From a virus, in IMG/VR virus record IMGVR_UViG_3300030451_002195, positions 5,348-45,580 of that record: 40,233 nucleotides of DNA, one strand, 5' to 3'. Position numbers and translations under genes: made by a program. How positions within the stretch are numbered: the stretch's first letter is position 1; each line of letters opens with the position of its first letter. Below the pieces are notes generated by a model. The model searched no databases and was not told the origin of the DNA. It saw only the letters and a program-made list of their open reading frames with translations. Below, piece by piece: positions 16,132-18,941 of the stretch.

Positions 16132-17211
16132 ATGGCTGCAATCTCACTAACAAGAGAAAGCAGTAGCAACTGGCAGAAGTTTTGTGAGTGGGTCACAAGT
16201 ACCGAGAACCGCCTATACGTAGGTTGGTTCGGGGTGCTAATGATCCCTTGCTTACTAGCTGCAACTACATGTTTTATACTCGCCTTTATCGCAGCACCGC
16301 CTGTAGATATAGATGGCATACGTGAGCCCGTAGCAGGCTCGTTGTTGTACGGAAACAACATTATTTCTGGAGCAGTAGTTCCAAGCTCCAACGCAATAGG
16401 ACTGCACTTTTACCCGATCTGGGAAGCTGGCACTTTGGACGAGTGGTTATATAACGGCGGACCATATCAACTTGTTGTGTTCCATTTTTTGATAGGTGTC
16501 GCAGCCTATGCAGGAAGACAATGGGAACTATCTTACAGACTTGGAATGAGACCTTGGATTTTTGTAGCTTACACAGCTCCACTATCCGCAGCTCTCGCAG
16601 TATTTCTAGTCTACCCTTTCGGACAAGGGAGTTTCAGTGATGGTATGCCTCTTGGTATCTCTGGTACTTTTAACTTTATGTTCGTATTCCAAGCAGAACA
16701 TAATATACTCATGCACCCATTCCATATGGCTGGTGTTGCTGGGGTATTCGGTGGATCTCTTTTCTCTGCTATGCACGGAAGTCTGGTTACTTCCTCACTT
16801 ATTGCAGAAACGACAGAGGAGGTATCACAGAACTATGGTTATAAGTTTGGGCAAGATGAAGAGACATATAATATTGTCGCTGCACACGGGTACTTTGGGA
16901 GATTGATATTTCAATATGCTTCTTTCAATAATTCTCGTTCTTTACATTTCTTTCTTGCTGCTTTCCCCGTGGTTGGCATATGGCTTACCTCCATGGGAGT
17001 CTGCACTATGGCATTTAACCTTAATGGTTTTAACTTCAATCAGTCAGTAATTGATGCTAATGGAAAGATAGTCCCTACTTGGGCTGATGTAGTCAACAGA
17101 GCTAACCTCGGATTTGAAGTAATGCACGAGCGTAACGCTCACAACTTCCCACTCGACTTAGCAAATGTTGGATCCACAGAAATTGCCCTCTCCGCCCCAG
17201 AAATTGGTTGA
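16132..17211 (+). CDS. psbA: Photosystem II D1 protein
   Basis: The 359-aa D1 is full length. It starts [18 protein letters not shown], has five membrane helices and contains [12 protein letters not shown] and [12 protein letters not shown]. The C-terminal processing site falls after Ala344 (DLA | [15 protein letters not shown]), with Asp342 and upstream His/Glu ligands ([15 protein letters not shown]) of the manganese cluster present. Phage D1 replaces damaged host D1 so that photosynthesis keeps supplying energy during infection. It follows hli without a gap. A 9-bp hairpin begins at the stop codon. Confidence 0.98.
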
Positions 17212-17437: not shown

Positions 17438-17446
17438 CGCTACGTC

Positions 17447-17497
17447 CGTTCATCCCTACGGGGACGCATGACTCCTAAGCATGGAACGGGGCTTAGG
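17447..17497 (+). promoter_or_regulatory. Glutamine-II ('Downstream-peptide') riboswitch
   Basis: Three helices can be drawn. P1 pairs CGTTC (17447-17451) with GAACG (17484-17488). P2 pairs TCCC (17453-17456) with GGGA (17461-17464) under a TACG loop. A 7-bp pseudoknot pairs CCTAAGC (17474-17480) with GCTTAGG (17491-17497), which lies outside P1. This H-type pseudoknot, the GACGCATGACTCC joining strand and the short ORF following 16 nt later match the Downstream-peptide class of cyanobacteria and their phages, established as a glutamine-binding riboswitch. The pseudoknot 3' strand sits just upstream of the Shine-Dalgarno TGGAG, suggesting translational control by glutamine level. Confidence 0.8.
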
Positions 17498-17513
17498 TAT
17501 ATGGAGATGACAC

Positions 17514-17567
17514 ATGAAAGTTACTTTCGTATATCGTGGCGTTGCTTACACAAGAGTAGTCAAGTAG
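17514..17567 (+). CDS. 17-aa 'downstream peptide' under riboswitch control
   Basis: The ATG at 17514 follows a GGAG at 17503-17506 and encodes MKVTFVYRGVAYTRVVK before TAG. The YRGVAY core resembles the DUF4278 small protein family of cyanobacteria (K-x-x-YRG-x-x-Y). Peptides of about this size are exactly what follows riboswitches of this class. The peptide's role is unknown, and it could itself act in nitrogen control or serve only as a translated leader. Confidence 0.65.
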   Translation: MKVTFVYRGVAYTRVVK

Positions 17568-17598
17568 ACCTTTGGGGAGGTGCGAATCCTCCCTACTC
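17554..17598 (+). ncRNA. tRNA-like acceptor/T-arm minihelix (uncertain)
   Basis: GAGTAG (17554-17559) pairs with CTACTC (17593-17598). Inside it GGAGG (17576-17580) pairs with CCTCC (17588-17592) around the 7-nt loop TGCGAAT, close to the T-loop consensus TTCRANY. The two helices would stack into an 11-bp acceptor-plus-T-arm shape, with a 16-nt single strand where D and anticodon arms would be. The 5' strand overlaps the end of the 17-aa peptide gene. No CCA follows. It may be a degenerate tRNA, a tRNA mimic or an mRNA processing signal. Confidence 0.4.
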
Positions 17599-17750
17599 AA
17601 TTTGGCTTTTGCCCTCTGAGGAGGATACCATTAGCCGTCGACGGTGGGAAACAGACCACAAAGCGTGCAGTCTCACGCTAGACCAAATAAGACTGACAAC
17701 ATTCTAGATCTAGGAACGACAATATATACCTTTACATTTAGGAAAAAATA
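17599..17750 (+). promoter_or_regulatory. Structured untranslated leader of the capsid gene
   Basis: No credible gene lies here. It holds the 10-nt palindrome CCGTCGACGG at 17635-17644, a 6-bp hairpin AGCGTG/CACGCT at 17662-17679, and the palindrome CTAGATCTAG at 17704-17713. The AT-rich AATATATACC is at 17721-17730, and the ribosome binding site AGGA lies at 17740-17743 before the capsid ATG. A phage or host promoter for the capsid gene could be here, but I cannot identify one with certainty. Confidence 0.4.
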
Positions 17751-18941
17751 ATGGCTCATCAGAGTTCAGATTTAACTACCTCGCTAACACGCCAAGGTCA
17801 GTTAAACATGGCAGGGGATTCCCGTGCCCTTTACCTGAAGCTGTTCAGTGGAGAAATGTTTAAAGGCTTCCAGCATAACGCTATCGCTAGAGATCTCGTT
17901 ATGAAGAGAACCCTTAAGAATGGCAAATCTTTACAGTTCATCTATACAGGTCATACAACAGCCGAGTTCCATACACCCGGCAACAGCATACTAGGTAACT
18001 CCGATGGAGCACCTCCAGTAGCTGAGAAGACTATCACTTGTGATGATCTTCTAATCTCAAGTGCATTCGTTTACGAGTTAGACGAGACACTTGCTCACTA
18101 CGAATTGAGAGGAGAAATATCTAAGAAGATTGGATATGCTCTTGCTCAGAAGTACGACAGACTTATCTTCCGTGCTATCGCCAAAGGTGCTAGACAAGCA
18201 AGTCCTGTTAAGAAGGCTAACAATACTTTTGAAGAGCCCGGCGGAACACAGATCAGAGTTGGTGCTAGTTCATCTAATGCTTCTGCTGCTTATGACGCTA
18301 CCGCTCTAGTAGATGCTTTCTACGATGCTGCTGCTGCTCTTGACGAAAAGGGAGTTAGCTCTCAAGGTAGAGTCGCTGTACTTAACCCACGTCAATACTA
18401 CAGTCTTATCAACTCTGTAAGTTCTGGTGTAATCACATCTGGTTTAATCAACCGTGACGCACAAGGAACAGCTTTACAGTCTGGACAAGGCGTAGCAGAG
18501 ATTGCTGGTATCAAGATCTACAAGTCCATGAACATTCCTTTCTTTGGAAATTATGGTACTAAGTATGGTACTGCTGGTACTGCTAACCCCGGAATCGCAG
18601 ATCCCGGAAACAAAGGTAACTTCGTTGGAGAAACCTTAGAGGATGGCAGAGCTTCTGTTACTGGTATTAACAACAACTATGGTAATGCTACAGACTTCGC
18701 TAACTCTTGTGGATTAATCTTCCAGAAGGAAGCTGCTGGAGTTGTAGAAGCTATTGGACCACAGGTTCAGGTAACTTCAGGCGACGTTTCAGTTGTTTAC
18801 CAAGGTGACGTAATCCTTGGAAGATTAGCTATGGGTGCAGACTTCCTAAACCCTGCTGCTTGCGTAGAACTTATCGCTGGAGCTGCTACTGGTTCAACTG
18901 GTAACGCTGCATTCGGTACTTCATACCCTGCAAACGCTTAA
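17751..18941 (+). CDS. Major capsid protein (gp10-like)
   Basis: The 396-aa HK97-fold shell protein starts MAHQSSDLTTSLTRQGQLN and contains the T7-capsid-family segments LFSGEMFKGFQHNAIARD, RTLKNGKSLQFIYTG and VLNPRQYYSLI. It has the C-terminal GDVSVVYQGDVILGRLAMG. Its codons are richer in G/C-ending choices than those of the neighbouring tail genes, consistent with high expression. A strong ribosome binding site precedes it and a strong terminator follows it, as for T7 gene 10. Confidence 0.96.
   Translation: MAHQSSDLTTSLTRQGQLNMAGDSRALYLKLFSGEMFKGFQHNAIARDLVMKRTLKNGKSLQFIYTGHTTAEFHTPGNSILGNSDGAPPVAEKTITCDDLLISSAFVYELDETLAHYELRGEISKKIGYALAQKYDRLIFRAIAKGARQASPVKKANNTFEEPGGTQIRVGASSSNASAAYDATALVDAFYDAAAALDEKGVSSQGRVAVLNPRQYYSLINSVSSGVITSGLINRDAQGTALQSGQGVAEIAGIKIYKSMNIPFFGNYGTKYGTAGTANPGIADPGNKGNFVGETLEDGRASVTGINNNYGNATDFANSCGLIFQKEAAGVVEAIGPQVQVTSGDVSVVYQGDVILGRLAMGADFLNPAACVELIAGAATGSTGNAAFGTSYPANA

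Follow-up and report, generated by a model that had tools for sequence, protein, structure and literature searches.

The stretch of viral DNA analysed here (40,233 nucleotides of a 45.6 kb virus record; henceforth referred to as the window) belongs to a T7-like cyanopodovirus close to Prochlorococcus phage P-GSP1, and carries between its psbA and capsid genes a Glutamine-II riboswitch that probably controls, as an ON switch, the translation of a minimal DUF4278-like peptide with a YRGxxY core. The riboswitch is of a known kind, and its output is specific to phages. Two features go beyond the initial annotation of this locus, which had proposed a Glutamine-II riboswitch at this place from the sequence alone: the stretch of leader behind the aptamer forms base pairs with the YRG codons, and a separate structured RNA (henceforth referred to as the capsid-leader RNA) precedes the capsid gene. 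In a cmscan search of the full 40 kb window against Rfam 15, the covariance search that the initial annotation had called for, the single match over threshold was RF01704 (Glutamine-II, or Downstream-peptide) at positions 17,444–17,497 of the plus strand, which spanned the full model (1–60) and scored 45.9 bits against a cut-off of 33 (E = 3.7e-8). The virus record holds one copy of the riboswitch. Other Rfam families reported near it at E ≤ 10 were chance matches only, and the glnA-type Glutamine family gave a weak cross-match of 16.7 bits, which is under its cut-off of 35. The proposed placement was likewise borne out: upstream lies psbA (photosystem II D1; 16,132–17,211, plus strand), at a position matching that of the annotated psbA in P-SSP7, P-GSP1 and others, and downstream lies the major capsid protein gene (17,751–18,941, plus strand), the product of which is 69–83% identical to cyanopodovirus capsid proteins.

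The element does not occur by chance, because we found it in nine further phage loci (46–56 bits) and in 19 of 20 further IMG/VR loci anchored on the capsid gene (40–59 bits). The riboswitch cassette lies ahead of the capsid gene in P-GSP1, P-SSP7, P-SSP2, S-TIP37, 9515-10a, NATL2A-133 and P-SSP10, and also downstream of psbA wherever the sequence examined for these isolates reaches psbA. The Mediterranean contig C24 has the same element between psbA and the capsid gene; contig C849 carries the element and stops short of the capsid gene. The RNA was unannotated in the records of the relatives examined. Around the invariant CATGGAACGG we collected 156 distinct phage copies, in which compensatory changes were abundant. 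In the second aptamer hairpin (CCTAAGC/GCTTAGG in the window, with the 3′ strand CTTAGG at 17,492–17,497), the six pairs were standard in 93–100% of the copies, compared to 48–86% with shuffled partners, and each of the six occurred as 4–6 pair types. The four outer pairs of the first hairpin, which in the window is the TCCC-TACG-GGGA hairpin with the TACG loop originally described, were standard in 99–100%. The pseudoknot between CCGTTC (17,446–17,451) and GAACGG (17,484–17,489) exists as drawn in the initial annotation, although its length of 7 bp was slightly generous since it consists of 6 Watson-Crick pairs plus a possible G-U pair; CGTTC is invariant among the 127 of the 156 copies with a canonical first hairpin and its pairs, which never vary in the copies used, are uninformative on covariation. 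Overall, the covariance match and the abundance of compensatory changes in relatives both support the assignment of the window element to the Glutamine-II class. In one group of phages (L135, L137, L154, L192 and L258) the 5′ half of the aptamer apparently overlaps the end of the upstream gene (...EETFQQDA-stop), so that the aptamer strand would be coding there too.

As the initial annotation had stated, a ribosome binding site and a 17-codon ORF directly follow the aptamer. The Shine-Dalgarno sequence GGAG (17,503–17,506) is placed 7 nt before the ATG at 17,514, and the ORF (MKVTFVYRGVAYTRVVK; 17,514–17,567, plus strand, 17 codons and TAG) encodes a peptide with a single YRGxxY core that is kept in relatives. 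All 156 retained riboswitch copies were followed by a short ORF (usually 13–43 codons) with (Y/F)RG, which was nearly always YRG..Y. Substitutions between close relatives numbered 143, 94 and 331 at the first, second and third codon positions, respectively, and this third-position bias indicates that the ORF is read as protein. DUF4278 (PF14105) is the N-terminal domain of the glutamine synthetase inactivating factor IF17, and the phage YRGxxY core matches the last ~20 positions of its profile. Pfam scoring was applied to peptides of at least 20 aa, which is longer than the 17-aa peptide of the window; the longer phage versions matched the end of the profile with E values of 0.003–0.07 and at best 18.3 bits. 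As these scores are below the curated cut-off of 25.3 bits, and as the phage peptides are without the rest of the domain, we did not assign them to DUF4278. By analogy with the host DUF4278 proteins, the phage peptide probably acts on host nitrogen metabolism.

In picocyanobacteria, DUF4278 genes are preceded by type 2 glutamine riboswitches, which bind glutamine and activate expression (reviewed in PMC6316151), and Downstream-peptide RNAs sit upstream of ORFs of 17–100 aa (PMC2864571). The phage cassette resembles the type 2 riboswitches of marine Prochlorococcus and Synechococcus in its aptamer sequence, pseudoknot fold, ribosome site and short YRG-bearing ORF (PMC2864571, PMC6316151). We infer that the phage RNA also binds glutamine, and the direction of the switch (ON) is taken from the host riboswitches. 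In contrast to the phage ORFs, which usually encode 13–43 aa with a single YRGxxY, those of the host encode 23–139 aa and often contain several YRG motifs (29 copies); further, the phage riboswitch sits in the leader of the capsid gene, unlike the host copies, and the pairing between leader and YRG codons is often present in phage copies and absent from host copies.

This pairing is evident in the minimum free energy (MFE) structure of 17,440–17,570, in which 17,496–17,506 pairs with 17,525–17,535 so that the ribosome site is paired and the start codon lies in the loop. The resulting hairpin (17,496–17,535, plus strand; leader GGTATATGGAG..TGAC with coding GTTA.CTTTCGTATATC), the proposed OFF state, has as its 3′ strand the codons for F-V-Y-R and opens on its 5′ side with the last two Gs of the second aptamer hairpin, which is why the two hairpins compete. 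Its energy was −13.1 kcal/mol with the shared GG and −8.6 kcal/mol without, a balance between OFF and ON that is indicative since the MFE method cannot model the pseudoknot; because the blocking hairpin retains −8.6 kcal/mol, switching may be partial. Leader and codons change together among phages (GGTATATG with CGTATATC, GGTACTTC with GAAGTATC and GGTAAATG with CGTTTATC). A switch helix of at least 7 bp was present in 87 of the 156 phage copies and absent from the other 69, compared to a mean of 37 (maximum 50 of 500) when partners were swapped and a mean of 72 (maximum 82) when codons were shuffled synonymously; with one row per codon segment, helices were found in 15 of 44, compared to a control mean of 7.3 (maximum 14), and none of these comparisons is corrected for shared ancestry. 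No such helix was detected among 29 marine Synechococcus host copies. The phages thus appear to have kept the sensor while cutting the protein to one YRG motif, whose codons now form one side of the shutter. At low glutamine, the leader behind the aptamer would pair with these codons and so conceal the ribosome site and the start codon. At high glutamine, the ligand-bound aptamer would hold its second hairpin, thereby withdrawing two Gs from the blocking hairpin and allowing the peptide to be translated.

Since the riboswitch is located inside the late operon and upstream of the capsid gene, we considered whether it could act on transcription of the operon, by attenuation or antitermination, rather than on translation of the ORF. 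We regard this as quite improbable: inspection of the sequence between the aptamer and the ORF revealed no hairpin with a U-run resembling an intrinsic terminator, the conserved alternative hairpin masks the ribosome site, and the operon is presumably transcribed by a phage-type RNA polymerase, as in T7-like phages, which also counts against transcriptional control. That a host riboswitch was captured and is kept without function is scarcely credible, even though the source is ample (33 of 34 marine Synechococcus genomes searched contain 1–11 copies each). The strong compensatory change, the YRG ORF after every retained copy and a switch platform unseen in host copies show selection, and the covariation already largely refutes functionless capture. 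Translational control of the peptide remains the preferred reading.

Glutamine riboswitches have been reported in T4-like cyanophages, pelagiphages and methylophages (PMC9602691, PMC9964418, PMC9004378), and the window shares with them a glutamine aptamer on a marine phage. However, those carriers are myoviruses, and the Melnitz motif resembles glnA (type 1) and adjoins ssrA, whereas the cassette of the window is of type 2 and podoviral, lies between psbA and the capsid gene and has a peptide ORF of its own. The initial annotation had suggested that late gene output, or a nitrogen-related peptide, is tied to host glutamine during infection; such glutamine control of infection is plausible, and would mean that very abundant marine viruses read the nitrogen status of their host by means of a sensor that was captured from hosts and given a rebuilt output. 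The long-standing question of how cyanophages tune infection to the nitrogen state of the host thus becomes testable with isolates such as P-SSP7 and P-GSP1.

The most valuable surprise was the capsid-leader RNA, which starts within the peptide gene. Its 5′ part in the window is a tRNA-like domain (form A; 17,554–17,598, plus strand) recognized by sequence comparison, in which GAGTAG (17,554–17,559) pairs with CTACTC (17,593–17,598) and encloses a small D-like hairpin and a T-arm (GGAGG-TGCGAAT-CCTCC, 17,576–17,592); the stop codon of the peptide (17,565–17,567) is inside this domain, between the acceptor strand and the T-arm. The constant 3′ module (17,602–17,659, plus strand), defined from 223 parsed copies and RNAalifold, consists of a GGC..GCC helix, the hairpin CCTC-TGAG-GAGG (17,613–17,624), ATACC, the palindrome CCGTCGACGG (17,635–17,644) and the hairpin GTGG-GAAACAGA-CCAC (17,644–17,659). 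Across the 223 copies, the variable pairs of the inner hairpin were paired in 99–100%, compared to 41–66% after shuffling, and the last hairpin was paired in 100%, compared to 70–80%; RNAalifold on 20 divergent copies found double changes at 13 of 19 pairs. This covariation rules out a chance hairpin. The single-sequence fold of 17,540–17,735 was mildly more stable than shuffled sequences, with a z of just −1.68, so that the case for the capsid-leader RNA rests on comparison, not on energy. The RNA was found in hundreds of marine phage contigs (for example L021:2846-2942 and L005:3649-3745), and 226 of the 238 elements recovered by an anchor-pattern search were located 60–106 nt upstream of a capsid-like ORF. 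The window and L021 gave no credible match to an Rfam family even at E 10, no earlier description was found in the literature searched, and the RNA is probably undescribed. A host origin was rejected, as the sole match in the genome collection was a phage contig within a Synechococcus single-cell genome. This contig (L289:2742-2893, minus strand, of Synechococcus AG-670-B23), the only bacterial-genome match of the hairpin form, is that of a podovirus with capsid, portal and scaffold-like ORFs, and the single-cell genome is probably that of an infected cell.

Whereas the 3′ module is fixed, the 5′ part of the capsid-leader RNA takes one of three forms, namely a hairpin whose loop is CACCTCAGAGTCGGA, an anticodon-less tRNA-like fold (as in the window) or a true or decayed tRNA, and the form changes at least 37 times on the capsid-protein tree. 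The anticodon-less fold comprises an acceptor-like stem and a T-arm with the T-loop consensus. Under a looser test, 5-bp acceptor stems were also formed by 44% of swapped pairs; under a stricter test, in which each tail contributed a single sequence, they were found in 15 of 21, compared to a mean of 6.5 and a maximum of 12 in 1000 controls. Neither Rfam (RF00005) nor ARAGORN detected a tRNA in the window. At the same place in other phages, RF00005 matches above cut-off were obtained for L186 (70.3 bits), which has a tRNA-Gly(TCC), and for the weaker tRNAs of L232 (33.6 bits) and L271 (32.3 bits). The tRNA genes at this position, which range from intact to degenerate (L186:6154-6224 and L233:5185-5257, both on the minus strand; L232:2128-2195; L271:1565-1632; L287 near 455-524), end ~2 nt before the fixed module. 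From their sequences, they look like a series that leads from a working tRNA to the anticodon-less tRNA-like fold. With tRNAs, tRNA-like folds and a simple hairpin swapping before one fixed module, the capsid-leader RNA seems to be a so far undescribed RNA family and to document the conversion of tRNAs into parts of an mRNA.

In other systems, tRNAs and tRNA-like elements within transcripts serve as cutting signals for RNase P and RNase Z. The phage element resembles these signals in its acceptor-like stem, its T-arm with the T-loop consensus and the presence of a real tRNA-Gly in some phages, but differs in that it is mostly without an anticodon arm and is embedded 5′ of the capsid mRNA. The capsid-leader RNA probably has a job of its own, and we infer that it most likely serves as a leader through which the capsid mRNA is processed and stabilised. 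A possible, though doubtful, alternative to control of a functional peptide is that the peptide is mainly a leader peptide, the glutamine-set translation of which decides whether the tRNA-like domain folds and whether the capsid mRNA is cut (by RNase P or RNase Z/E) and stabilised; if so, glutamine would gate capsid output. Of the 51 adjacent cases, 48 have a T-arm that starts 8–15 nt past the stop codon of the peptide, and a ribosome terminating there would thus sit over the 5′ half of the tRNA-like domain. True or degenerate tRNAs occupy the same place in L186, L232 and L271. The tRNA-like form was also found beside a riboswitch more often (42 of 49) than the hairpin form (37 of 117; Fisher p = 8e-11, uncorrected for ancestry), an association that related sequences inflate. 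However, the peptide sequence is conserved as protein, and most hairpin-form phages have 66–1105 nt between the riboswitch ORF and the element, a spacing that speaks for the riboswitch and the capsid-leader RNA as separable parts. It is unlikely that the two form a glutamine-gated processing switch operated by ribosomes, in which ribosomes at the stop codon would determine whether the tRNA-like domain folds, and thereby whether host tRNA-processing enzymes cut and stabilise the capsid mRNA.

In two loci (L260 near 388 and L270, minus strand, near 1416) a longer, extended stem stands where the capsid-leader RNA otherwise has its small hairpin. Between the 3′ module and the capsid gene of the window there is a second perfect palindrome (CTAGATCTAG; 17,704–17,713, plus strand), and relatives have analogous palindromes at the same place. 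The first palindrome (17,635–17,644) stays perfect across phages (CCGTCTAGACGG, CCGTCATGACGG, CCGTCGACGG, CCGAACCGGTTCGG and others). At both places the letters differ from phage to phage but the palindrome is retained, which points to two RNA copies pairing with each other or to a dyad in the DNA, and not to a single fixed protein site.
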